Virus record (IMG/VR): IMGVR_UViG_3300037191_001672
Location: 1-21,132 of that record
From: a virus
Direction: 5' to 3' (one strand)
DNA length: 21,132 nucleotides
Shown here one piece after another: positions 273 through 10,232 of this stretch (position 1 is the first letter of the stretch; every line of letters starts with the position of its first letter). Under the pieces are notes generated by a model that searched no databases, was not told the DNA's origin, and worked only from the letters and a program-made list of their open reading frames with translations. The translations under genes were made by a program, and so were the position numbers.

Positions 273-280
273 TATTTATA
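273..280 (-). promoter_or_regulatory. T4-type late promoter box (TATAAATA)
   Basis: The plus strand reads TATTTATA, so the minus strand carries a perfect TATAAATA, the sequence recognised by the T4 gp55/gp33/gp45 late transcription machinery. With usual spacing, transcription would start near 267, giving a leader of about 67 nt before the minus-strand ATG at 200. A gp33 homologue is encoded in this window, which supports use of such boxes. Confidence 0.6.
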
Positions 281-322
281 TATACTTTTGTATCTAATAG
301 CCTATTTAATTAAGGATTTGTT

Positions 323-1435
323 ATGAGCTTTTGTAGTGCACCTTTTACACAACTGTCTATCGATCCCAGAGGTGTACTATTGCCATGCTGCCGATATCCA
401 AAACCATTATCGGATATGAAAGATGAGCGAATTGATGAAGGCTGGAATAATGAAAAATTCCAAGATCTTCGTCAAAGGTTTTTAGATGGTGAAAAACCTA
501 AAGAATGTAATGATTGCTGGAAGGCCGAAGAATCAGGTATTGAAAGTCTTAGGCAGGTAATAAATCGTTGGACCGATGATAAGTTACTGCCCGAAAAATT
601 TAAGTCCGCCGTTTTAGATACTCCGCCTGTATTTTGGGAATTTAAAACTACAAATGTGTGCAACCTTAAATGCCGTATGTGTGGATCATTCAATTCTAGT
701 CAAATTGCAAAAGAAACCGAAACGCCTGACGTGAGAGCACATTATCTAGCTCATAAAATACTCGGCACACATCACGAGCCAATCATACGCGATTGGCTGA
801 AGCAAGCTGATTATATCCTATTTGCAGGTGGCGAACCATTTGTAAATCAGGAAATTAAAAAGATTATGGATTACATAGACGAAGAAGGTCTTAATGACAT
901 AAGAACTTTAATGGTCACAAACGGAACTCACTGGAATACTAAGTTTGTTTCCCAGCTAAAAAAACTGAAGTCGCTTGACATTAGAATAAGTTTGGATGAT
1001 ATCTATGAAAGAAATAACTATCAACGTGAAGGCTCAGACTTCGACGTTATAGAAAAAAACTTTATAAATTTTATAAACAATTTTCCGGATAAAGTAATGT
1101 TTAATTGTACTATGAATTGGTACAATATATACTATATAGATGAGTTTTTAGAATATGCTGATGATTTTAGCACACCAGTTTCAATTCAATATGTTGAACA
1201 ACCAGTGAATCTAAATATCACTAATTTGCCTATTGAAGTAAAAGCAATTGTAAACAAGAAGTTTAAAGATAATAAAGACGAACGAATTCAGTTGATACTT
1301 AATAGAATGAACTTAGAAGGCGTTAATAAGATCGAACACTTTCGAGCACATATAAAATACTATGATGAACTGAGAGACAATAATTTTGCAAAAGCTTTTC
1401 CTGAATGGAGTGAGATATTAGATAATGTACGGTGA
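323..1435 (+). CDS. Radical SAM protein with N-terminal twitch-like Cys domain (copy 1)
   Basis: The 370-aa product has the radical SAM cluster motif C113-x3-C117-x2-C120 (CNLKCRMC) and a GGE motif (169-171, in LFAGGEPF). These are expected for a [4Fe-4S] enzyme that cleaves S-adenosylmethionine to a 5'-deoxyadenosyl radical. Before the core lies a Cys-rich N-terminal domain (C4, C22-C23, C62, C65, with the PxGxxLPCC pattern) resembling a twitch/SPASM auxiliary-cluster fold moved to the N-terminus. This matches the 'twitch domain-containing radical SAM' family common in marine phages and bacterial islands. The substrate of that family is not known to me. The start at 323 has AAGGA six bases upstream. 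It is the first gene of a coupled operon and overlaps the next, similar gene by 11 bases, suggesting the two work together. It could equally be a peptide, sugar or nucleotide modifier. Confidence 0.85.
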   Translation: MSFCSAPFTQLSIDPRGVLLPCCRYPKPLSDMKDERIDEGWNNEKFQDLRQRFLDGEKPKECNDCWKAEESGIESLRQVINRWTDDKLLPEKFKSAVLDTPPVFWEFKTTNVCNLKCRMCGSFNSSQIAKETETPDVRAHYLAHKILGTHHEPIIRDWLKQADYILFAGGEPFVNQEIKKIMDYIDEEGLNDIRTLMVTNGTHWNTKFVSQLKKLKSLDIRISLDDIYERNNYQREGSDFDVIEKNFINFINNFPDKVMFNCTMNWYNIYYIDEFLEYADDFSTPVSIQYVEQPVNLNITNLPIEVKAIVNKKFKDNKDERIQLILNRMNLEGVNKIEHFRAHIKYYDELRDNNFAKAFPEWSEILDNVR

Positions 1436-2474
1436 ATTTTCCCCATGTAATGCTCCATTTAATAATATGTATTTTAACACCCAAGGTGAAGTTGCTCCGT
1501 GTTGGAAGCTTCCTGGATTTGGTGACAAGTGGTCTAAGGATCGATCTGTAAATGATATATGGAATGGTGAGCATTTTCAAAAGTATCGTGATGCACTATT
1601 ACAAAACAAATTCTTAGATAGATGTAAAGAGTGCAAGCACGAAATGGATAATGACGTATGGCCTCTTGCAAAGGCATATGGTGAATTACCTGTGAATAAG
1701 AATGGTTATCCAAGCATGATTGAGCTTGAGGTAAGCAACCAGTGTAATCTCGAATGTATAATGTGTTCACCGCTATTAAGTAATGGCCTTGCAAAGAAAG
1801 CCGGTATGGGCGATCATCGTGGAATGCTAGAACCGTATGATGATTCATTTAGAGAGCAATTAAAGGAATACTATCCGCATCTTAAAGAGCTTCGATTTAA
1901 TGGCGGAGAACCATTTGCTCAAAAACTAGTATTAGAAATGTGCGAAGACATAGCAGAAATTAATCCTGGTCTTCCTATTAGTATTGCTACAAATGGTACT
2001 GTAATGAATAAGCGAGTACGTCATCTATTAGATATCTGTAACATCCAAATCAATATTAGTATTGACAGTTTAATTCCTGAGGCATATTCAAAAATTCGTA
2101 TTAACGGCGATCTTAGTAAAGTTATGGAAAACTTAGAAATCTTTAAGGATCACTGTAAGAAGAAGGATGTACAAATATCGGTTATGGTAAATCCTATGCG
2201 TAATAACTGGGAAGAGATGCCATCGTTCTTAGACTTTTGTCATAAGCATGATGTAAAGCTTTGGTTTAATACCGTGCTTTATCCGAGGCACCTATCGATA
2301 TGGAACCTTCCTACGGATGAGCTTAAGGTCATTTATGATAAGTTATCTACTATGACTGCTCGGCGAAAAAGGCTCAATGAATATAATAAACTCCGACATT
2401 TAGTAGAAGATCAAATTGCAAATTGGTTAATGGATTCTTATACAGAATCAAAACCAGACGATTTACATCCATGA
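1425..2474 (+). CDS. Radical SAM protein with N-terminal twitch-like Cys domain (copy 2)
   Basis: The 349-aa product has the same architecture as its upstream neighbour: an N-terminal Cys domain (C8, C26, C67, C70, with GEVAPCW in place of LLPCC) followed by a radical SAM core with C107-x3-C111-x2-C114 (CNLECIMC) and GGE at 160-162 (FNGGEPF). Only one Cys is present where copy 1 has a CC pair, so the auxiliary cluster may be ligated differently. The two are clear paralogues by domain order but diverged in sequence, so this is an old duplication or separate acquisition. The start overlaps the previous gene by 11 bases, and the stop overlaps the next start as ATGA, indicating translational coupling. 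The substrate is unknown; co-occurrence with a sulfotransferase-like gene hints at a small-molecule or surface-decoration pathway (inference). Confidence 0.85.
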   Translation: MYGEFSPCNAPFNNMYFNTQGEVAPCWKLPGFGDKWSKDRSVNDIWNGEHFQKYRDALLQNKFLDRCKECKHEMDNDVWPLAKAYGELPVNKNGYPSMIELEVSNQCNLECIMCSPLLSNGLAKKAGMGDHRGMLEPYDDSFREQLKEYYPHLKELRFNGGEPFAQKLVLEMCEDIAEINPGLPISIATNGTVMNKRVRHLLDICNIQINISIDSLIPEAYSKIRINGDLSKVMENLEIFKDHCKKKDVQISVMVNPMRNNWEEMPSFLDFCHKHDVKLWFNTVLYPRHLSIWNLPTDELKVIYDKLSTMTARRKRLNEYNKLRHLVEDQIANWLMDSYTESKPDDLHP

Positions 2475-3088
2475 CCCGTAAAAATATTTTGATAGTATCG
2501 GTACCAAGAACTGCATCTACATATTATCAAAGGGCTATGGCTCAAGAACACAATCTTATTGATGCCGGTGAAAAGCTTGAAACTATTAACTCAATTTATA
2601 GAAGCGATATAAACCCTTATATCGCTAAAGTGATGTTTTTAAAATTGGGGCGCTATATCGTACACTACCAGGATATTATTAAAGAGTGTGAAATACATGT
2701 ACTAGCCCCAAGAGAAGATATGGTTGATCACATAATGTCAAATCTTCTAATGCAATATAAACAACAGACTGATGGCTATGGCGAATATTGGTCAGTATCA
2801 TATGATAGAGATAAAAATAAAGTGTTAAACAATCTTGGCGATATAAAGGTACCGTATGAATATGTGACGGATGTTTCTGCTTACCATCTAATGCAAGCTC
2901 GCACTTTAGGAAAAATGACGCAATATGATAAGAAGATTACTTTTGAAGAAGTTATCGGACTACAACTACATACCTACCCAAATCATAAAGTATTTGAATC
3001 GCGCGAAGACAAGATGAGGTATTTTGAAGAGCCTGAAAAAACATTAGAGTATCTGGAGGCGTTAACATCATGTCATTTGCTGATTTAG
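2471..3088 (+). CDS. Sulfotransferase-like protein
   Basis: I place the start at ATG 2471 rather than the in-frame ATG at 2423, because it forms an ATGA overlap with the previous stop and puts the nucleotide-binding motif at the N-terminus. The 205-aa product begins with a beta strand and loop, ILIVSVPRTASTYYQRAM. PRTAST (residues 12-17) resembles the 5'-phosphosulfate-binding loop (PRTGST type) of PAPS-dependent sulfotransferases. The protein is short for the family and I cannot point to the 3'-phosphate-binding segment with confidence, so activity is unproven. It would transfer sulfate from PAPS to an unknown acceptor in the cytoplasm. It sits between radical SAM genes and overlaps the next by 19 bases, so it probably belongs to the same pathway. 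It could instead be another P-loop-like protein. Confidence 0.6.
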   Translation: MTRKNILIVSVPRTASTYYQRAMAQEHNLIDAGEKLETINSIYRSDINPYIAKVMFLKLGRYIVHYQDIIKECEIHVLAPREDMVDHIMSNLLMQYKQQTDGYGEYWSVSYDRDKNKVLNNLGDIKVPYEYVTDVSAYHLMQARTLGKMTQYDKKITFEEVIGLQLHTYPNHKVFESREDKMRYFEEPEKTLEYLEALTSCHLLI

Positions 3089-3870
3089 TAAATAAGCAAG
3101 TTAGAATTGCGCTAGACCTTTCTACATATTGTAATGCAGCTTGCCCACAATGTCACCGTACTGATCCTAACGGGCTTGGTAAGATGCCATGGCTTCCACT
3201 TATAAAATGGTCGTTAGAAGACTTTACACGAAAGTTTCCGCCAGGATCAATAGACTTTGTTTCACAGTTTGAAATTTGTGGAACTTGGGGTGATCCTATT
3301 ATGAGTAAAGATGTTGGCAAAATATGTAAATATATTATCGATAACTCGGATGCTCAAATACATTTGAATACAAACGGCGGGATGCGAACAGAAACTTGGT
3401 GGGAAGATCTTGGAAACTATTGTAAAGAGCGCCTGACGGTATATTTTGATATTGATGGTGTTGATAACGAAATGCATCAGAAGTACAGGAAAGGTGTAGA
3501 TTTAAACATAACGCTTAACAACATGGAAGCACTTTCTATTACACGTGCTCATACAAAAGCGTTTATAATTCTATTCAAACACAATCAAGATTATGTCTAT
3601 GATATAAGAAAAATGTGTAGAATGTACGGTGCCCAAGAAGTCTATATTATTAAGTCTGATAGATTTTTGATCAATGATAGGTTTGAGTTTATTAATGAGT
3701 TTGGTGAAAAAGAAGTTCTTGAAGAAATAACTAAAGACTTAAATCACATAATTCAAAATCCTTGGATCGATAATGCTTCAAAGAATATGATGGCAACACA
3801 TAATAAAACTGACAAAAGCAAGTATGCTAAAGATTGGACAATCCATGGACACAGATCTCACAGAGAATAA
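3070..3870 (+). CDS. Radical SAM core protein, stand-alone (pair A)
   Basis: The 266-aa product carries C21-x3-C25-x2-C28 (CNAACPQC) after a first beta strand (RIALDLSTYC), typical of the radical SAM barrel start. In place of the usual GGEP it has CGTWGDPI (70-77), which aligns by position with the SAM-amino-group-binding GGE loop. A later FDIDG and FKHNQD are shared with the pair B protein at 4170. There is no C-terminal Cys-rich SPASM region: the protein ends shortly after the barrel, and that domain is encoded by the next, overlapping gene. The start has GGAGG about ten bases upstream and overlaps the sulfotransferase gene by 19 bases. Reaction and substrate are unknown. Confidence 0.82.
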   Translation: MSFADLVNKQVRIALDLSTYCNAACPQCHRTDPNGLGKMPWLPLIKWSLEDFTRKFPPGSIDFVSQFEICGTWGDPIMSKDVGKICKYIIDNSDAQIHLNTNGGMRTETWWEDLGNYCKERLTVYFDIDGVDNEMHQKYRKGVDLNITLNNMEALSITRAHTKAFIILFKHNQDYVYDIRKMCRMYGAQEVYIIKSDRFLINDRFEFINEFGEKEVLEEITKDLNHIIQNPWIDNASKNMMATHNKTDKSKYAKDWTIHGHRSHRE

Positions 3871-4198
3871 ACCATGCATTACGTGCAAGTGGTTAAATGA
3901 AGAAAAAATACTCGTAAACCCAGATGGTCAGGTACTACCGTGTTGCTATTTAGGTAATACCAATTTCTTAAACCTATCAGATCCATCAAACAGGTCTGGC
4001 TGGGATAAGGATGGGTCTGTATTAAATAAGTATAAAAAGAATAGGCATAAGTATAATTTGAATGGCCACACCCTTGAAGAAATATTGACTTCTGATTGGT
4101 TTAACGTAGATCTTCCTGAATCATGGGAAAGCTATGAAACTCTTCCATCTGCATGCAGGACCTTTTGTGATGAACCAGACACTACTCCACTTTCTTGA
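3845..4198 (+). CDS. Stand-alone SPASM-like Fe-S domain protein (pair A)
   Basis: The 117-aa product looks like the C-terminal auxiliary domain of a SPASM radical SAM enzyme without its core: C11-x2-C14, then NPDGQVLPCC (C33-C34), then a helix with LEEILTSDW, and finally C104-x3-C108. In fused enzymes the same order (Cys, PxGxxxxCC, IxxIWxS, CxxxC) ligates one or two auxiliary [4Fe-4S] clusters. I chose ATG 3845 over 3824 because a GGA sits six bases upstream and it starts just before the first Cys pair; 3824 cannot be excluded. It overlaps the radical SAM core gene by 26 bases in the +1 frame and overlaps the next core gene too. It probably docks onto the pair A core in trans (inference). 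A programmed frameshift joining the two is possible, but I see no classic slip site. Confidence 0.75.
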   Translation: MDTDLTENKPCITCKWLNEEKILVNPDGQVLPCCYLGNTNFLNLSDPSNRSGWDKDGSVLNKYKKNRHKYNLNGHTLEEILTSDWFNVDLPESWESYETLPSACRTFCDEPDTTPLS

Positions 4199-4868
4199 AA
4201 GATCTAATCCGCACGTAAACTTTTCTCGTACTATCAACATGGATATATCTAATAAATGTACGTTAGAATGCCCATGTTGCAGACGCTTACAGCATATGAA
4301 AAAATATGGTAAAGTTTTAGGTGAGACGCTTTCTATAAAAGACTTTGAAAAGTATCTTAAGTATTTTGACCATTTTGATTTTAGTGGACAAGTTTCAGAC
4401 CCGTCTATGCATCCAGATTTTAAAGGCATATTGCATAAGGTTATAGAGTATGGTAAAAGTGCCTCAGTACACACAGCAGCATCACATAAGCCAGTAAAGT
4501 GGTACAAAGAAATATATGAAGAATGTACTAATGAAAATATTTCGTGGTTTTTTGGAATAGACGGACTACCAGAAGATTCACACAAATATCGTGTAAGGCA
4601 AGACGGCAAAAAGCTTTTTGATATGATGAAGATGTCTACAGAATACATGGATCCTAATAATATCATATGGAAATACATTGTATTCAAATACAACCAACAT
4701 GATATTGAAACTTGTAAAAAAATGGCACGTGATATCGGCGTCATATTTAATGTCGTGTATTCAAACCGATTTCCGTCCGAAGAATTCAGGCCAGACACAG
4801 AATTCCAATCTACGATACCAATGTTAAATAAAGTATATTATCCTGACGGAAGTGAAGAAATATGGTAA
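4170..4868 (+). CDS. Radical SAM core protein, stand-alone (pair B)
   Basis: With the start at ATG 4170 (AGGA nine bases upstream; an in-frame ATG at 4134 is the alternative) the product is 232 aa. The cluster motif is C30-x3-C34-x2-C37 (CTLECPCC, with one extra Cys at 36). The GGE-equivalent loop reads FSGQVSDPSMHPDF, again ending in DP. Shared landmarks with pair A (DxSxxC start, F-x-IDG, HxYR, FK-x-NQ) show the two cores are paralogues. The C-terminal SPASM region is absent and is supplied by the next gene, which begins seven bases before this stop. Length is below that of a complete SPASM enzyme, consistent with a core-only protein. Function is unknown; it likely acts with the gene at 4862. 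Confidence 0.8.
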   Translation: MNQTLLHFLERSNPHVNFSRTINMDISNKCTLECPCCRRLQHMKKYGKVLGETLSIKDFEKYLKYFDHFDFSGQVSDPSMHPDFKGILHKVIEYGKSASVHTAASHKPVKWYKEIYEECTNENISWFFGIDGLPEDSHKYRVRQDGKKLFDMMKMSTEYMDPNNIIWKYIVFKYNQHDIETCKKMARDIGVIFNVVYSNRFPSEEFRPDTEFQSTIPMLNKVYYPDGSEEIW

Positions 4869-5242
4869 ATGAATTTGAACCTATGTGTCTCGTTAAAAAA
4901 TCCTTGCTTATGAAAAAAGAAGGATTTGCTCATACTGCTACCGGATATTTAATACCGTGTTGTCACATTGACTACGAGCACAAACCACCAGATCCGCTAT
5001 ATAGTGCATTATTGAACGAAGAGCTTAAACTTTCAAATAATGAGTCTATCGAAGATATTCTATTAACAGATGAATGGTTAGCCTTTTCTGATGCTGTAGT
5101 AAAAGGAGCAAACGAAGGTCTTGAATATGCACCGCTGGCATGTAGAAAAATATGCGGGCCAGATAGACCAATTGAACAGATTGGCAGAACTGATGGCACT
5201 GTAAAAGAAAAAGTGAAAAAAAGTGAAAAAATAGCAAATTAA
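4862..5242 (+). CDS. Stand-alone SPASM-like Fe-S domain protein (pair B)
   Basis: The 126-aa product repeats the pattern of the protein at 3845: C9, then TGYLIPCC (C33-C34), a helix containing IEDILLTDEW, and ACRKIC (C94, C98) near the end. It is a paralogue of that protein and again follows a radical SAM core gene lacking this domain. The first C-x2-C pair of the pair A protein is reduced to one Cys here, so cluster ligation may differ. The C-terminus is a Lys-rich tail (KEKVKKSEK) encoded by an A-rich run. It overlaps the core gene by seven bases (frame -1), with a GAAG-type ribosome site upstream. This is the last gene of the accessory operon; no clear terminator follows, and a new promoter lies just downstream. 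Confidence 0.75.
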   Translation: MVNEFEPMCLVKKSLLMKKEGFAHTATGYLIPCCHIDYEHKPPDPLYSALLNEELKLSNNESIEDILLTDEWLAFSDAVVKGANEGLEYAPLACRKICGPDRPIEQIGRTDGTVKEKVKKSEKIAN

Positions 5243-5245
5243 CTG

Positions 5246-5274
5246 TTTACATATGATTCCAGATGTATTATTCT
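5246..5274 (+). promoter_or_regulatory. Sigma70-like promoter for the small-gene cluster
   Basis: TTTACA (5246-5251; five of six to the -35 consensus) is separated by 17 bases from TATTCT (5269-5274; four of six to the -10 consensus). Transcription would start around 5281, some 25 bases before the ATG at 5307, which has AGGAG at 5294-5298. A 7-base inverted repeat (ACTGTTT 5242-5248 and AAACAGT 5283-5289) brackets the promoter and could be an operator, or chance. The nonamer ATGTATTAT inside it recurs at 7443-7451 next to another promoter. Confidence 0.55.
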
Positions 5275-5306
5275 AATTACAGAAACAGTGATTAGGAGAA
5301 AACAAG

Positions 5307-5654
5307 ATGATCAAGATTCACCAAATTCAATTGACAGAAGCTCAAGTAGACCTTATCAACGCAGAAGGTCACGATGCAGTTCCTGCTCAGTCAGCTAAAT
5401 TGGCCGTATCATTCTTTGGTCCATCTAAGTTTAAAACCGAAAACTTTGCTTTCTACTCAGAAGCATTCCAAGTTCACACAGATGATAAAAATCTTGCATT
5501 TGAATATACTAATCTTTGGAACAATCAGTATTTTGTAGAAGTGATTGGTGATCGTAATCATTCAACATCAGTTGGTGATATCCTTGAAATGGATAACGGC
5601 GAATTCTTCATGGTGTGTAACTTTGGTTTTGAAAAAATCGAGGTGGCGGCATGA
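5307..5654 (+). CDS. Conserved phage protein of unknown function with SVGDI motif
   Basis: The 115-aa product is acidic and soluble, with no membrane segment. Its C-terminal third has the pattern HSTSVGDILEMDNGEFFMV followed by GFEKI, which I recognise as a recurring module (R/HSxSVGDxx...xG..F.V...GF) in small proteins of marine phages and plasmids. No function is established to my knowledge. The start has AGGAG eight bases upstream and lies directly behind the promoter at 5246-5274. Codon use looks more regular than in the radical SAM genes upstream, as expected for a well-expressed early gene (impression only). It ends in an ATGA overlap with the next gene. Confidence 0.7.
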   Translation: MIKIHQIQLTEAQVDLINAEGHDAVPAQSAKLAVSFFGPSKFKTENFAFYSEAFQVHTDDKNLAFEYTNLWNNQYFVEVIGDRNHSTSVGDILEMDNGEFFMVCNFGFEKIEVAA

Positions 5655-5833
5655 GCCTACAACAAGATTTAACTAATTTTTACAAATATAAGAGTGGCCA
5701 AGCTGCGGCCACCGAAGAAATGAAACATCCGGACTTCGACTTATTCGCCGCGATTAAATCTTTTGAGGATGATCCTGCAGACAGTTCTTTTCAGCATGGC
5801 TTTCTTAATGCATTGCGCAGAGGAGGTATGTGA
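5651..5833 (+). CDS. Small phage protein of unknown function
   Basis: This 60-aa protein starts in an ATGA overlap with the preceding stop and has a purine-rich GAGGTGG upstream. It is helical and polar, with no Cys and an acidic middle (FEDDPADSS) followed by FQHGFLNALRRGGM. I recognise no family. The last codons carry AGGAGG, which serves as ribosome binding site for the following gene, so the end of this gene is constrained by that role. It was probably co-transcribed from the promoter at 5246. Confidence 0.6.
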   Translation: MSLQQDLTNFYKYKSGQAAATEEMKHPDFDLFAAIKSFEDDPADSSFQHGFLNALRRGGM

Positions 5834-5997
5834 TGTTTTATCAGCAGCTGATTATGAAAATTTTAGAATGTGATGAGGCTTATGCCAAAATCATATTTGA
5901 TAAAATGTGTTTTTTGGATATGAGTGAAATGAGTGGTGCACAATTTACCGCTGAAGTACAATGGACAGATTTATGTTTAACTGAGGAGAGTGCGTAA
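5833..5997 (+). CDS. Very small phage protein of unknown function
   Basis: A 54-codon frame starts with ATG at 5833, sharing one base with the previous TGA, seven bases behind AGGAGG (5820-5825). It stops with TAA at 5995-5997, sharing one base with the next ATG. The product starts MFYQQLIMKILECDEAYAKI, is acidic and helical, and contains three Cys (residues 13, 26 and 48) with no recognised motif. The strong ribosome site and the exact fit between two neighbours make it a real gene despite its size. Confidence 0.65.
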   Translation: MFYQQLIMKILECDEAYAKIIFDKMCFLDMSEMSGAQFTAEVQWTDLCLTEESA

Positions 5998-6179
5998 TGG
6001 TTGGTTTAATCAGAGATATTGAAACACTTCGGAGTGTTATTATTGGAATTAGTGAAGGCGCTTCAGATGAGAAGCGTAGTGCAATGACTATGTTAACGGA
6101 CTTATTGGCACGTAAGGAGCTAGCATTCAAAACTTTTGAGGATGAAAATGAACCTCTAGAAATGGATGTGGTCGATTAA
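5997..6179 (+). CDS. Small acidic phage protein of unknown function
   Basis: This 60-aa protein starts in a TAATG overlap with the previous gene, eight bases behind GAGGAG (5983-5988). It is predicted helical with a very acidic tail (FEDENEPLEMDVVD). No family is recognised. It ends in a TAATG overlap with the next gene. Small acidic proteins in T4-like early regions are often host-takeover factors, but nothing here proves that. Confidence 0.6.
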   Translation: MVGLIRDIETLRSVIIGISEGASDEKRSAMTMLTDLLARKELAFKTFEDENEPLEMDVVD

Positions 6180-6409
6180 TGTTCACAAACGAAATTGATT
6201 GGGATGAAAGTATTACTACTGTCTTATGTGAAGCCGATGCTTACGAAGACGTGCAAATGTTCATCGACGAAAATGAAGTATACATAAGACAGTGGAATGT
6301 ATCACGGGACGAGCACGACTTGATTGTCATGTCTCCTATGATGTTCGCTGAACTATTACTAGCACTCAAACAGCCGGAAGGCAGTTTCCATACAAGGAAT
6401 AAAGAATGA
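6179..6409 (+). CDS. Small acidic phage protein of unknown function
   Basis: This 76-aa protein starts in a TAATG overlap without a strong ribosome site, so it probably depends on translational coupling. It is strongly acidic (EIDWDESITT near the start, FIDENEVYIRQW in the middle) with a hydrophobic helix (MMFAELLLALK) that is too short and interrupted to be a membrane span. No family is recognised. It ends in an ATGA overlap with the next small gene. Confidence 0.6.
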   Translation: MFTNEIDWDESITTVLCEADAYEDVQMFIDENEVYIRQWNVSRDEHDLIVMSPMMFAELLLALKQPEGSFHTRNKE

Positions 6410-6576
6410 CTAATGAGCATATGCAAGTTCAGATTATGAACATTATCGATAAATTAAAAATCATCGAGACAAAATTGTCTAAGGTTGAAGCACGCGTTTT
6501 AACACACCATGATGATATTCGTAGTATTCGTAAGCATACTGATGCAATTAAATCCACACTCGGAGGAATAAATTAA
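6406..6576 (+). CDS. Very small coiled-coil phage protein
   Basis: A 56-codon frame begins with ATG 6406 (ATGA overlap; AAGGA at 6394-6398) and ends with TAA at 6574-6576, sharing a base with the next ATG. The product has heptad-like spacing of I, L and V from about residue 9 to 50 (IMNIIDKLKIIETKLSKVE), which suggests a short coiled coil and oligomerisation. No family is recognised. The codons near its end carry GGAGGA, the ribosome site of the following gene. Confidence 0.62.
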   Translation: MTNEHMQVQIMNIIDKLKIIETKLSKVEARVLTHHDDIRSIRKHTDAIKSTLGGIN

Positions 6577-6845
6577 TGATGACTGATGAACAAATGAAAG
6601 ATCGTTTGGCTTTAATCAGAAAAGTCGGTAATCGTCGTAATAAAATGGCAAATCTTAAAGCTAAATCTAAGGCTCTATTAAATTCTGATATGTTGCCAAA
6701 AAAGAGTAAGCTTGTTCATGGCATTTTCATTCCGACTGATGACATGACTAATATCAATACATACACCGATGCACCGAAATATGCAAAGATGTATTATGGC
6801 GAAACTGCACATGAAACAACGAAATTTGATAATGATTGGAATTGA
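6576..6845 (+). CDS. Small basic phage protein of unknown function
   Basis: This 89-aa protein starts at ATG 6576 (or the adjacent ATG 6579), eight bases behind GGAGGA (6562-6567). The N-terminal half is basic and helical (RKVGNRRNKMANLKAKSK), possibly nucleic-acid binding. The C-terminal half is polar with several Tyr and Thr. No motif allows a function call. The next gene starts one base after its stop. Confidence 0.6.
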   Translation: MMTDEQMKDRLALIRKVGNRRNKMANLKAKSKALLNSDMLPKKSKLVHGIFIPTDDMTNINTYTDAPKYAKMYYGETAHETTKFDNDWN

Positions 6846-6846
6846 T

Positions 6847-7107
6847 ATGAAATATGAAAGAGAATGGCTTGTAAATACTTTGCTAGAAAATGAGAGCAAA
6901 GTAACATTCACTAAAAAAGACGGTACATCTCGTGTGATGTACTGCACGCTGCATCCATCTTTCTTACCGCCGGCTAAAAAGGACGATGCGTTAAGTCAGA
7001 AAAAAGTTCGTGCATTGAATGAAGAAGTTGTTGTAGTATATGATACAGAATCTGAAGGTTGGAGATCCTTCAGAGTTGATAGTGTGCTCGATTTTGAAAG
7101 TCTATAA
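6847..7107 (+). CDS. DUF2693-like small protein (SH3-barrel-like)
   Basis: I start the gene at ATG 6847, one base after the previous stop with GGA six bases upstream, instead of the longer frame from 6769, which would overlap the neighbour by 77 bases. The 86-aa product reads VTFTKKDGTSRVMYCTL, later VVVVYDTESEGWRSFRVDSV. This VxFxKKDGTxRxMxCTL ... VYD...GWRxFRxDS layout matches the small beta-barrel family I know as DUF2693 from T4-like phages. Its function is unknown. It is the last gene of the small-gene ladder, and its stop codon lies inside a late promoter box. Confidence 0.7.
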   Translation: MKYEREWLVNTLLENESKVTFTKKDGTSRVMYCTLHPSFLPPAKKDDALSQKKVRALNEEVVVVYDTESEGWRSFRVDSVLDFESL

Positions 7108-7110
7108 ATA
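7103..7110 (+). promoter_or_regulatory. T4-type late promoter box (TATAAATA)
   Basis: A perfect TATAAATA overlaps the TAA stop of the preceding gene. Expected start is near 7116, giving an untranslated leader of about 80 bases to ATG 7195. It would add late transcription of the small membrane protein, the basic protein and gp33. Confidence 0.55.
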
Positions 7111-7194
7111 GGTATTTAGTATCCATCCACCCTCAAAGGAACTCTTTAATTATACCACCATTTCTAATATCTGTACACAGTAAAAGGTTGACTT

Positions 7195-7407
7195 ATGAAT
7201 TTTTATATCGAACCATTTTGGGTAGCGTTTGCCTGCGTCGGGCTTAGTGCTTTGACCGGATATCTAATTGCTCGTACAAATCACGATGCAGATAATGAAA
7301 GAGCTATTGAGGACACTATCACATACCTTTGTAAAGAAGGCTATATAAAGCATAGGCATTTATCTGACGGTGAAATCGAAATCATTCCTCTGGAAGCAGA
7401 ACTATAA
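7195..7407 (+). CDS. Small single-span membrane protein
   Basis: The 70-aa product has one hydrophobic segment (residues 6-26, PFWVAFACVGLSALTGYLIA) followed by R27 and a polar, mostly acidic tail. This suggests an N-out/C-in inner-membrane protein or an uncleaved signal anchor. The tail pattern DTITYLCKEGYIK then GEIEIIPLE resembles short proteins of similar layout that I recall from marine T4-like phages; function is unknown. AAGG at 7184-7187 is seven bases before the start. It could act in host membrane takeover, superinfection exclusion or lysis timing, but nothing decides between these. Confidence 0.65.
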   Translation: MNFYIEPFWVAFACVGLSALTGYLIARTNHDADNERAIEDTITYLCKEGYIKHRHLSDGEIEIIPLEAEL

Positions 7408-7415
7408 AATAAGTG

Positions 7416-7444
7416 TGTACAACCTATTAATAATGTTGTAGAAT
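7416..7444 (+). promoter_or_regulatory. Sigma70-like promoter before the basic protein/gp33 genes
   Basis: TGTACA (7416-7421; four of six to the -35 consensus) and TAGAAT (7439-7444; five of six to the -10 consensus) are 17 bases apart. ATG 7473 follows with GGAGG at 7463-7467. The same arrangement (TGTAC-like element, 17 bases, TATAAT-like element) recurs before gp32 at 9256-9284. Confidence 0.5.
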
Positions 7445-7472
7445 GTATTATAGCAACGTTTTGGAGGATACC

Positions 7473-7979
7473 ATGGTTAAGAGAGATACTATAAAAATCA
7501 AGCCTAAGAAGCCACGCAAGCCTATGTCAGAGGAACAGCGCAAGCAGGTTGCTGAGCGTTTTGCCAAAGCTCGGGCCGAAAAGCTACTAAAAAATCCACC
7601 ATCATATTCATACATTGCCGATAACATATTGGCATTACCTGAAGATGATGTGTTCTCTCTTAAAAATATCAGACGGTGGCAGGCAACACAGAAAGAGATC
7701 TTGAAAGAAGATAGATCTCTCCTCCGTAAAGAACCTAATACAAAGGGCCTTTATGGAAAGGTATCTGCTACTGCCGGATACATTGCAAACCTAGATAGGT
7801 TCTTACGTACCGGAGATTACTGTGATGACTTCTATGGTGAACATAGGGAACACGCAGTAAAGTGGAGATGTGTACATCCGGCATACGACAAAGAAGGTAA
7901 TATTAAACGAACACATGGCGTATTTTATTCAGACCTTGGATTTACCTGGAATGATATGGCGGAAAACGAGGTTGAATGA
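7473..7979 (+). CDS. Conserved basic phage protein of unknown function
   Basis: I start at ATG 7473 because GGAGG lies five bases upstream; the longer frame from 7443 would overlap the predicted promoter. The 168-aa product has a very basic N-terminus (KIKPKKPRKPMSEEQRK, then a charged helix to about residue 45), followed by a LPEDDVFSLKNIRRW segment and a C-terminal globular part with HREHAVKWRCVHPAYD. The layout PxKPRKPMSEEQ-R-x-ERxxKAR with LPEDDxxSxKNxxxW is one I associate with a conserved protein next to gp33 in marine T4-like phages; its role is not known to me. The basic tail suggests nucleic-acid or RNA polymerase contact (inference). It overlaps gp33 as ATGA. Confidence 0.65.
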   Translation: MVKRDTIKIKPKKPRKPMSEEQRKQVAERFAKARAEKLLKNPPSYSYIADNILALPEDDVFSLKNIRRWQATQKEILKEDRSLLRKEPNTKGLYGKVSATAGYIANLDRFLRTGDYCDDFYGEHREHAVKWRCVHPAYDKEGNIKRTHGVFYSDLGFTWNDMAENEVE

Positions 7980-8206
7980 TAGAAACACAATTTTTAACAA
8001 AATCAAAATTCTCTGTTCTTATTGAGAATGCCGTAATTAAACAAAAAATGTCATACATCGATGCGGTGTGTGACATTTGCGAAAAGCATAATATCGATAC
8101 TCAGGATGTGCGCAAGTTTATATCTGCGCCTATCAAAGATAAGATTGAAGCCGAAGCAATGAAACTAAATTACTTACCACGCGGTAATGAATTAACATTT
8201 GAGTGA
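7976..8206 (+). CDS. gp33: Late-transcription co-activator, T4 gp33-like
   Basis: The 76-aa product aligns by eye with the C-terminal two thirds of T4 gp33. MSYIDAVCDICEKHNID corresponds to MSYLEATTAFLEENSIP, and APIKDKIEAEAMKLNYL to SGIIEKIQSEAIDENLL. In T4, gp33 binds the RNA polymerase beta-flap and links it to the gp45 sliding clamp, activating transcription from TATAAATA promoters together with gp55. The protein is shorter than T4 gp33 (112 aa) and lacks its N-terminal extension. It starts in an ATGA overlap with GAGG four bases upstream. Late boxes elsewhere in the window and the nearby gp32 gene fit the T4 arrangement, where gene 33 lies close to gene 32. Confidence 0.8.
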   Translation: MIETQFLTKSKFSVLIENAVIKQKMSYIDAVCDICEKHNIDTQDVRKFISAPIKDKIEAEAMKLNYLPRGNELTFE

Positions 8207-8209
8207 ACA

Positions 8210-9241
8210 ATGAAACCACTTCAGAATATAAATTTTGTACTGTCTAATAGATGCAATGCTACTTGTGTGTGGTGCCCGGCAAGTCGTGGCACTAAAAGTA
8301 ATTTTGATATGGACAAAGAGTTAGTATTTAAAATTATAGACGAAGCGGCTCACCCTGATTTTCCGTATGAATTGCAGCGTATGCATATGAGTGAAAATGG
8401 CGAGGCACTATATCATAGAGACTTTGTTGAGATCCTTCGATATATTAAAAAGAAACTTCCTAATGTGAAGGTTGATATGCTAAGCAACTTTGGACTAATG
8501 TCTAAGAAGGTTGCTGAGATACTTGTGAGAGAAAAACTGTTCGATTCTATTCAAGTTAATATTGATGGACACAACGACGAATCTTATAAGGCTGTCAAAG
8601 GTATTCCGTTTAAATCTGTAATGAAAAACCTAAAACATTTCTTAGGTTTGCGGATGGAACATTATCCTGATTTAGATTTTGGTATTAACGTAATGCCTGC
8701 CTTTGAATATGCTGCCACAATCTTCTCGGTATATGACAAGAACCCAATTCAAATTCCGGCTGGTACAAGTGTACCATTTAGCTCATACAGTTTGGTATGT
8801 AAAAGCCTAACAGAAATATTAGGTGAAGATATATTCAACTCACTGAGTGTAGTTAGACATAGTAGTTCAGGTATGTGGGCAGAAAGACCTCGATTTAAAT
8901 CAGGAGAACTTAAAGCTCACCCAGATTCTAAATGTCCTATGGTTAATGTTATGACAGAAACTATGTATGTAGCACCTAACGGAGATTTCTATGCATGCTG
9001 CCTTGATGATAATCAGGACTTGGTTGTAGGAAATCTGAAAGAGCAAACCTTAATAGAAGTTTGGAATTCACCTGAACGCCGAAACTTTATGAACAATATT
9101 AAGATGCATAACTATGGTAAGATTGGCTATCCATGTAATACTATTGGCGCCTGTCAAACCATAAATAACGCTGATCCCGATCATTGGAAAAATATCGAAG
9201 ATCAGTATAGCGATGGAGATTCCGTTGTCTTCGAAGAATAA
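8210..9241 (+). CDS. Radical SAM/SPASM protein, fused form
   Basis: The 343-aa product has the radical SAM motif C15-x3-C19-x2-C22 (CNATCVWC) at the very N-terminus. The GGE-equivalent loop is SENGEALYHRDF, and IDGHNDESY is a typical mid-barrel element. The C-terminal SPASM region has C242, APNGDFYACC (C263-C264), VGNLKEQTLIEVWNS, C309 and C315, enough for auxiliary Fe-S clusters. SPASM enzymes often modify ribosomally made peptides, but the family is broad and the substrate here is unknown. Unlike the 3070-5242 pairs, core and SPASM are fused. It starts three bases after gp33 with a weak ribosome site and is followed by promoters for gp32, so it sits inside the replication/late-transcription block rather than the accessory operon. 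Confidence 0.85.
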   Translation: MKPLQNINFVLSNRCNATCVWCPASRGTKSNFDMDKELVFKIIDEAAHPDFPYELQRMHMSENGEALYHRDFVEILRYIKKKLPNVKVDMLSNFGLMSKKVAEILVREKLFDSIQVNIDGHNDESYKAVKGIPFKSVMKNLKHFLGLRMEHYPDLDFGINVMPAFEYAATIFSVYDKNPIQIPAGTSVPFSSYSLVCKSLTEILGEDIFNSLSVVRHSSSGMWAERPRFKSGELKAHPDSKCPMVNVMTETMYVAPNGDFYACCLDDNQDLVVGNLKEQTLIEVWNSPERRNFMNNIKMHNYGKIGYPCNTIGACQTINNADPDHWKNIEDQYSDGDSVVFEE

Positions 9242-9243
9242 AG

Positions 9244-9251
9244 TATAAATA
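9244..9251 (+). promoter_or_regulatory. T4-type late promoter box before gp32
   Basis: A perfect TATAAATA follows the radical SAM stop codon by two bases. Transcription would start near 9257 and read through the sigma70-like promoter into gp32. Combined early/middle and late promoters are known for T4 gene 32. Confidence 0.55.
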
Positions 9252-9255
9252 GCGG

Positions 9256-9284
9256 TGTACTACGACACATGAACGTGGTATAAT
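9256..9284 (+). promoter_or_regulatory. Sigma70-like promoter for gp32
   Basis: A perfect TATAAT (-10, 9279-9284) is preceded at 17 bases by TGTACT (9256-9261), a weak -35 that resembles the TGTACA before 7473. The expected start near 9291 leaves a leader of about 42 bases with the repeat at 9295-9315 and AGGA at 9321-9324. The weak -35 with a perfect -10 could mean that a phage activator replaces the -35 contact, as in T4 middle promoters (inference). Confidence 0.5.
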
Positions 9285-9294
9285 ACAAAAACAC

Positions 9295-9315
9295 ATTACA
9301 GCAATATTACAGCAA
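9295..9315 (+). repeat. Tandem 10-base repeat in the gp32 leader, candidate autoregulatory operator
   Basis: ATTACAGCAA occurs at 9295-9304 and again at 9306-9315, separated by one T, immediately before the ribosome binding site (AGGA 9321-9324) of gp32. The region is A-rich and looks unstructured. T4-type gp32 represses its own translation by binding cooperatively to an unstructured leader next to the start codon, so these repeats may be its binding units (inference). Confidence 0.5.
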
Positions 9316-9332: not shown

Positions 9333-10232
9333 ATGTCTTTTGCAGAACTAAAACGAAATAAAAGCTCAATCTCTAAACTCATCCAAGCAGCCGAAACTGC
9401 TGGCGGTGGTGGAGAAAAGAAAAGCTACGGTGATGATCGTATCTGGAAACCAACAGTAGATAAAGCCGGCAACGGTTATGCTGTCCTACGTTTCCTTCCA
9501 GCCGGTGAAGGCCAAGAACTTCCTTGGGTTCGGTATTGGGATCACGGTTTTAAAGGCCCAACTGGCCAATGGTACATCGAACGGTCTCTTACATCAATTG
9601 GCCAAACAGATCCTGTCGGTGAATTGAATTCCAAGTTATGGAATACAGGTATCGAAGAGGATAAAGGAACTGCACGCCAACAAAAGCGTCGGTTACACTA
9701 TGTCTCAAATATTCTAATTGTATCAGATCCTGCTAATCCTGAGCGTGAAGGCAAAACCTTCTTGTATCAGTATGGTAAGAAAATCCATGACAAAATCATG
9801 GATATGATGCAGCCAGAGTTTGCGGACGAAACTCCTACAAATCCGTTTGATATGTGGGAAGGTGCAGACTTTAAACTTAAGATTCGTAACGTTGAAGGCT
9901 ATCGTAATTACGATAAGTCTGAGTTTGCTTCTCCTGCAGCTATCTCTAGCGATGAGGATAAGCTTGAAGCTCTATATAATGGTATGTACGATCTAGCAGA
10001 GTTTGAAGATCCTAAGAACTATAAAACATATGCTGAGCTTAAAGCCAAGCTTATGAAAGTTCTTGGTGAATCTGCAGATGCCGGTCAGCAGTCATTGGCC
10101 CAGGCTGCTCAAATGAATGAGCCAGCGCCTGATCCAATGTTTAATGCTCCGGTAACGGCAGAGTCTATTAGTGAGAAATCAAATGATGATGACACACTAT
10201 CATACTTTGCCAAGCTTGCTCAAGACGATTAA
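9333..10232 (+). CDS. gp32: Single-stranded DNA-binding protein, T4 gp32-like
   Basis: The 299-aa product has the three-part gp32 plan. A short basic N-terminus (FAELKRNKSSISKL, residues 3-16) is the cooperativity domain. The OB-type core includes LRFLPAGEG, HGFKGPTGQWYIERSL, KRRLHYVSNILIVSDP and KIRNVEGYRNYDKSEF. A flexible Ala/Pro-rich linker leads to an acidic tail (SNDDDTLSYFAKLAQDD) that in T4 recruits replication partners. It coats ssDNA during replication, recombination and repair. The T4 core holds Zn through His and Cys residues, whereas this protein has no Cys at all: the region corresponding to the T4 zinc loop reads TSIGQTDPVGELNSKLWN, as I recall from marine T4-like phages. It ends tail to tail with the minus-strand tape-measure gene, the two stops sharing TTAA. 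Confidence 0.9.
   Translation: MSFAELKRNKSSISKLIQAAETAGGGGEKKSYGDDRIWKPTVDKAGNGYAVLRFLPAGEGQELPWVRYWDHGFKGPTGQWYIERSLTSIGQTDPVGELNSKLWNTGIEEDKGTARQQKRRLHYVSNILIVSDPANPEREGKTFLYQYGKKIHDKIMDMMQPEFADETPTNPFDMWEGADFKLKIRNVEGYRNYDKSEFASPAAISSDEDKLEALYNGMYDLAEFEDPKNYKTYAELKAKLMKVLGESADAGQQSLAQAAQMNEPAPDPMFNAPVTAESISEKSNDDDTLSYFAKLAQDD

Follow-up and report, generated by a model that had tools for sequence, protein, structure and literature searches.

A chain of overlapping radical SAM genes in a marine T4-like phage and its possible part in the tailoring of sugars for a phage-made glycan

The window analysed here is the 21,132-base IMG/VR virus record IMGVR_UViG_3300037191_001672 at its full length, a fragment of an incomplete phage genome, and the system in question is an island of seven genes (A to G) at positions 323-5242, related to the oxygen-sensitive radical S-adenosylmethionine (SAM) enzymes and interrupted by a P-loop-like gene (Table 1). 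The seven open reading frames (ORFs) are co-directional on one strand and each overlaps the next (A/B by 11 nucleotides (nt), B/C by 4 nt given a C start at ATG 2471, C/D by 19 nt, D/E by 47 nt or, with the E start at 3845, 26 nt, E/F by 65 nt or, with the F start at 4170, 29 nt, and F/G by 7 nt), followed by a 64-nt gap before the next gene. An initial annotation, made from the letters alone, had described seven genes overlapping end to end, and all of these ORFs are present in that order on a single strand. The closest relatives of the gp32-like gene are found in Phage C48C1 (60%) and Methylophilales phage Melnitz (55%), both Kyanoviridae, and the window is a contig of a Kyanoviridae-like (T4-like) marine phage. 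A DNA search of positions 323-9300 against annotated phages returned no match, and scans for generic sigma-70 promoters and terminators gave hits at or under the shuffle expectation. Compared with the related contig L002, genes A, B, D, E, F and G have 90-98% amino acid (aa) identity and ratios of nonsynonymous to synonymous substitution (dN/dS) of 0.03-0.12, similar to the 0.07 of gp32. Hence, these six genes are under purifying selection and are not chance ORFs.

Table 1. Features of the radical SAM island and its surroundings in the window
Feature	Position	Strand	Description
Gene A	323..1435	+	N-terminal-twitch/SPASM radical SAM protein, 370 aa, CNLKCRMC; PF04055 and PF13186 above cut-off
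Gene B	1425..2474	+	N-terminal-twitch/SPASM radical SAM protein, 349 aa, CNLECIMC; PF04055 E=1.5e-14
Gene C	2471..3088	+	205 aa, PRTAST P-loop-like motif; PF13469 below cut-off
Gene D	3070..3870	+	Radical SAM core, 266 aa, CNAACPQC; PF04055 above cut-off
Gene E	3824..4198	+	SPASM auxiliary cluster domain, 124 aa; PF13186 above cut-off; alternative start 3845
Gene F	4170..4868	+	Second radical SAM core, 232 aa, CTLECPCC; longest ORF from 4134
Gene G	4862..5242	+	SPASM-like partner of F, 126 aa, GYLIPCC and ACRKIC; no Pfam match
Eighth radical SAM/SPASM gene	8210..9241	+	Outside the 323-5242 span; same enzyme class; PF04055 E=1.6e-13, PF13186 E=2e-12
gp32-like gene	9333..10232		Closest to genes of Kyanoviridae
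TATTTATATATA	273..284	.	Minus-strand copy of a T4-type late-promoter motif and a degenerate plus-strand copy, upstream of the island; putative role

The Pfam cut-off for Radical_SAM is passed by A, B and D and that for SPASM by A, B and E. In A and B, a SPASM/twitch domain at the N-terminus is combined with the radical SAM core, and both proteins match NF033640, a family of twitch domain-containing radical SAM proteins, over nearly their full length. A scores 287.5 bits and passes the curated cut-off of 170, whereas B, with 168.8 bits, misses it by 1.2 bits; NF033640 is a subfamily model, to which the library attaches only a domain name and no further function. The best match of B in the PDB is MoaA. 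Gene F scores 18.9 bits against PF04055 (cut-off 29.5) with its CxxxCxxC motif intact and matches a generic radical SAM model of NCBIfam at E=1e-8. The initial observation of two twitch proteins and two core/SPASM pairs is confirmed, F being a weaker core and G a SPASM-like partner that matches no Pfam family.

A profile scan of viral contigs detected the D family in at least 80 loci, which were reduced to 58 non-redundant ones; gene counts in these relatives rest on pattern-based scans and simple ORF calling. In 54 of the 58 loci, D comes with a SPASM part, either as the next ORF or as a fusion: in 40 it is a separate ORF in the gene chain of D, a chain being defined as genes separated by gaps of up to 30 nt, in 14 both parts form a single ORF, and three of the remaining four loci are truncated by contig ends. 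Before the removal of duplicates, 19 fused ORFs were longer than 320 aa; the one in L082 is distant and the other fusions, at least 18, are 346-404 aa long. Together, D and E contain the CxxxCxxC core and the C-terminal SPASM domain of the radical SAM/SPASM class and, because related contigs carry both parts as a single ORF, their sequences mark them as one radical SAM/SPASM enzyme in two pieces. Among 85,000 prokaryote genomes, close matches to D occur only on phage contigs. The best three matches in cell genomes (L113-L115, 42-46% identity over most of D) are on contigs that carry the same phage genes inside bins of metagenome-assembled genomes (MAGs), and the other full-length matches reach 24-36% identity, those of about 30% being regarded as generic radical SAM proteins; the D family therefore looks restricted to phages in the collections searched. 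The best solved structure for the D profile is that of BlsE (PDB 7vob/7voc), a cytosylglucuronate decarboxylase that works on a sugar moiety, which is matched over the radical SAM core with E=1.4e-5. However, the match spans only ~180 residues, and D differs from BlsE in requiring a separate SPASM protein.

The genes that accompany D in other phages are often of glycan type. At least one such gene is present in the chain of D in 46 of the 58 non-redundant loci, and a glycosyltransferase or a cytidine monophosphate (CMP)-sugar synthetase in 40. The classes around D are glycosyltransferases of the GT-A type, proteins resembling CMP-3-deoxy-D-manno-octulosonic acid (Kdo) synthetases, carbamoyltransferases, SGNH proteins and methyltransferases. 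Clustering of the ORFs around D gave the neighbour families c1, in 49 loci, and c2, in 41 loci, both with invariant DxD motifs. By sequence, c1 has no match in the PDB, and its structure was used instead. The c1 model has a predicted local distance difference test score (pLDDT) of 92.9, and glycosyltransferases make up all 50 PDB matches listed, including LgtC, LARGE1 and the PBCV-1 capsid glycosyltransferase; the top matches are GT-A structures (best E ~1e-6, template modelling scores ~0.4-0.5), so that the modelled c1 has a GT-A fold. Among the other neighbours, c3 is methyltransferase-like and c13 SGNH-like, both by motif, and the c18 carbamoyltransferases pass their Pfam cut-offs. In the nearest sister islands D/E stand alongside a CMP-Kdo-synthetase-like gene, and a 3-deoxy-8-phosphooctulonate synthase near D in L012 scores above its curated cut-off. 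The recurrence of the island genes together in many phages is the opposite of what had been named as refuting a common pathway, namely single homologues scattered over unrelated contexts.

In many relatives the typical order is a fibre region c6-c5-c4 followed by c2-c3-c1-c2-D-E-(A-B), with the twitch radical SAM genes last. Of the non-redundant loci of c1, 35 have full flanks; fibre or structural genes lie within 6.5 kb of c1 in 32 of them and radical SAM genes in 27. Of 14 larger records, 13 contain c1, with D close to it in eight and far from it in five; uniform placement would give such closeness with P ~6e-5, a value that is descriptive only, the genomes being related. The island of the window, near gp32, has the far-away layout, as does the related 152-kb record G001, in which c1 and c2 are found elsewhere. 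Upstream of the island, a late-promoter-type motif is present as listed in Table 1. In the sister phages L004-L009 a perfect two-way TATTTATAAATA element lies 29-31 nt upstream of the first island gene (e.g. L004:1060-1071), between a divergent gene of 160 aa and the island, and might be a shared late promoter. The motifs would fit late expression and are taken here as an observation on this sister group only.

Part of the system is found in a cultured phage. Pelagibacter phage Mosig EXVC030M encodes a homologue of F with 41.5% identity, annotated as a molybdenum cofactor enzyme, and the gene that follows it shares with G a GYxIPCC-like motif and 35% identity over 55 aa. G-like genes (family c29) come after F-like genes in several related loci, and the Mosig pair is likewise weak against radical SAM and SPASM models. 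These two genes belong to a mostly overlapping run at positions 61,562-70,736 of Mosig, between the tail-fibre genes and VrlC, in which there are also a further radical SAM gene, MoaA-like, an aminotransferase of the DegT family (252 bits) and genes for a carbamoyltransferase, a methyltransferase and c1. No D gene was found in Mosig by tblastn.

Based on these associations, we propose, with about even confidence, that the island is a reshuffling sugar-tailoring module of a phage-encoded glycan assembly and that the acceptor is most likely a virion appendage. D+E, F+G, A and B would each reduce S-adenosylmethionine at a [4Fe-4S] cluster to generate a radical, which would be used to epimerise, deoxygenate, dehydrogenate or couple an activated or transferred sugar. 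The product would then be attached by separate phage glycosyltransferases, those of the c2-c3-c1 block beside the tail-fibre genes, which in the phage of the window presumably lies elsewhere in the genome, as in G001. Because of the linkage to fibre genes, the acceptor would be a tail fibre or adhesin, giving each phage its own coat or receptor-binding chemistry. Of the roles listed in the initial annotation, decoration of the virion or host surface is the best supported, given the sugar genes in the chain of D, the c1 fold, the Mosig run and the Kdo-type genes. A more far-reaching version, that marine T4-like phages use phage-only, often two-piece radical SAM/SPASM enzymes to build a specific glycan on their tail fibres and swap the tailoring genes to vary the coat, seems doubtful to us.

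Several observations weigh against the sugar-tailoring proposal. The seven genes of the window include neither a glycosyltransferase nor a nucleotide-sugar enzyme, and the labels of several glycan-type genes (c3, c13 and the 185-aa GT9-like genes) are motifs read by eye, with no Pfam match. No radical SAM gene is near c1 in 8 of the 35 loci, and the c1/c2 block is far from D in G001, G002, G004, G006 and G011, so the link is not obligatory. The BlsE match would fit a sugar substrate for D, but weakly, as it reflects the shared radical SAM core only. Across all D loci the late-promoter motif is not significantly enriched (4/29 compared with 32/171 controls), and late promoters were dropped as proof of late expression. 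Lastly, SPASM radical SAM enzymes are best known for modifying peptides (see also PMC11002830).

The same sugar chemistry could instead be directed at the host, altering its lipopolysaccharide (LPS) or O-chain during infection to act against co-infecting phages, a possible but less probable alternative. Such a target has been proposed for the glycosyltransferases of the pelagimyophage host recognition cluster (PMC7029224), KdsB-like and KdsA genes beside D are LPS-type sugar functions, and c1 resembles LgtC, a builder of lipooligosaccharide. However, the interleaving of the cassette with fibre and structural genes and the late-type motifs of the sister islands fit virion assembly better, and among the genes examined no membrane flippase or polymerase was recognised, although no systematic search was made.

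It is improbable that the enzymes act on a ribosomal peptide or on side chains of a virion protein, in the manner of ribosomally synthesised and post-translationally modified peptide (RiPP) or fibre maturation. SPASM and twitch radical SAM enzymes commonly act on peptides, the fibre-region protein c5 is often encoded in the chain of D, and a conserved micro-ORF of 33-45 aa lies beside an SGNH gene in some D loci. However, c5 also occurs in loci without radical SAM genes (L148, L159-L163), no NCBIfam peptide-maturase model reaches its cut-off, and no conserved small intergenic ORF adjoins the island of the window, which bears out the earlier remark that no precursor peptide is evident and leaves a RiPP assignment without its precursor. 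The micro-ORF, with a basic amphipathic start and an acidic end near IYEEDE, mostly comes after an SGNH-like gene in D-type loci (L004:2043-2165, L005:4237-4362, L007:7864-8004, L008:7847-8011, L048:11109-11243, L063:12166-12423 and others), and was detected neither in the window nor in c1-type loci with SGNH but without D. Many of these phages have a further conserved micro-ORF (core RYYEWMLWKxRQE), which is just upstream of D in some loci and far from it in others (L059:6551-6679, L062:7859-7957, L063:7648-7746, L007:892-999, L010:2536-2694). As the micro-ORFs follow SGNH genes or sit elsewhere, they were rejected as a precursor peptide of the island.

We give equally little credence to the idea that the island is unrelated cargo at a common insertion hotspot, its overlaps reflecting compact phage genomes and no joint pathway. 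Close relatives do differ in gene C and in the gene at the 8210-9241 site, and sugar genes are missing from the vicinity of a few D loci (L031, L042). On the other hand, even divergent phages keep the D/E and F/G pairs intact, D often has sugar genes around it, and purifying selection acts on the genes. The single pathway suggested at first is nonetheless overstated if read as fixed, since the cargo is reshuffled and near-identical islands lack C, with a clean join in its place. Nucleotide chemistry, either QueE-like DNA hypermodification or synthesis of a viperin-like small molecule by the twitch enzymes, is highly improbable: A and B match viperin and QueE-like models weakly and generically, their scores against the prokaryotic viperin model NF038283 (43.5 and 42.1 bits) are far under the cut-off of 180, and the island has no further gene that was recognised as part of the queuosine pathway, so that the counter-defence or antiviral small molecule also listed in the initial annotation finds no support.

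Gene C is an optional cassette, as seen from its clean absence in the close relatives L002 and L003, which carry the same island with a clean join at the overlap of the B stop and D start. It had been labelled sulfotransferase-like, an identity that is unproven: PF13469 is matched at E=0.038 with 14.7 bits (cut-off 27), and the AlphaFold2 model, with a pLDDT of 48, is too low in confidence for a fold search. C has no relevant match among PDB sequences and no tblastn match in annotated phages, and its comparison with other PRTAST proteins by hhalign gave a probability of 27%. The site just before gp32 appears to be a swap site: where the window has its eighth radical SAM/SPASM gene, L002 (13606-14712) and L003 (6193-7299) have an unrelated gene that by eye resembles GMP reductase/IMP dehydrogenase. 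In L001, an Asn/Thr-repeat protein with a signal-like start (3166-4176, minus strand) and a large secreted-looking protein (1065-3230, minus strand) are encoded beside the gene divergent from the island and may be the counterpart of a curli-like region described for pelagimyophages. L126, which was binned as a Rickettsiales MAG (MED657), has about 12 consecutive radical-SAM-like ORFs with CxxxCxxC motifs.

The island was at first called undescribed, but phage radical SAM islands and radical SAM cassettes in the pelagimyophage host recognition cluster have been published (PMC2853527, PMC7029224), and a T4-like genome with 12 radical SAM genes has been reported (PMC5332604). In the T4-type Campylobacter phages CP220 and CPt10, several adjoining radical SAM genes form an interchangeable block (PMC2853527), described as radical SAM-rich modules, and in CP220 the block is followed by two genes similar to nucleotide-diphospho-sugar transferases. 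In contrast, their identity to D and F is only ~26-30% over partial length, an amidinotransferase replaces the P-loop or carbamoyl genes, and the authors proposed a role in host metabolism and not in glycans. The host recognition cluster of pelagimyophages, including Mosig EXVC030M, combines glycosyltransferases and radical SAM cassettes between VrlC and the tail-fibre genes (PMC7029224, PMC7892664), and host O-chain modification has been suggested for it (PMC7029224). Mosig resembles the window in its F/G-like genes, which stand together with c1 in a single run, whereas the island of the window is near gp32, outside the structural cluster and without a glycosyltransferase of its own. We have not found descriptions in the open-access literature of the two-piece D/E family, of its seeming confinement to phages or of the operon-level coupling to sugar-activating genes. 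Clusters of radical SAM genes in phages have been known since 2010 with no function assigned to them. Their operon-level link to sugar-activating and glycosyltransferase genes, and the presence of part of the system in a cultured pelagiphage, make it possible to ask by experiment whether they concern glycans of the virion or host surface in phages of very abundant marine bacteria. The D/E family would, in addition, offer new radical sugar chemistry restricted to phages.

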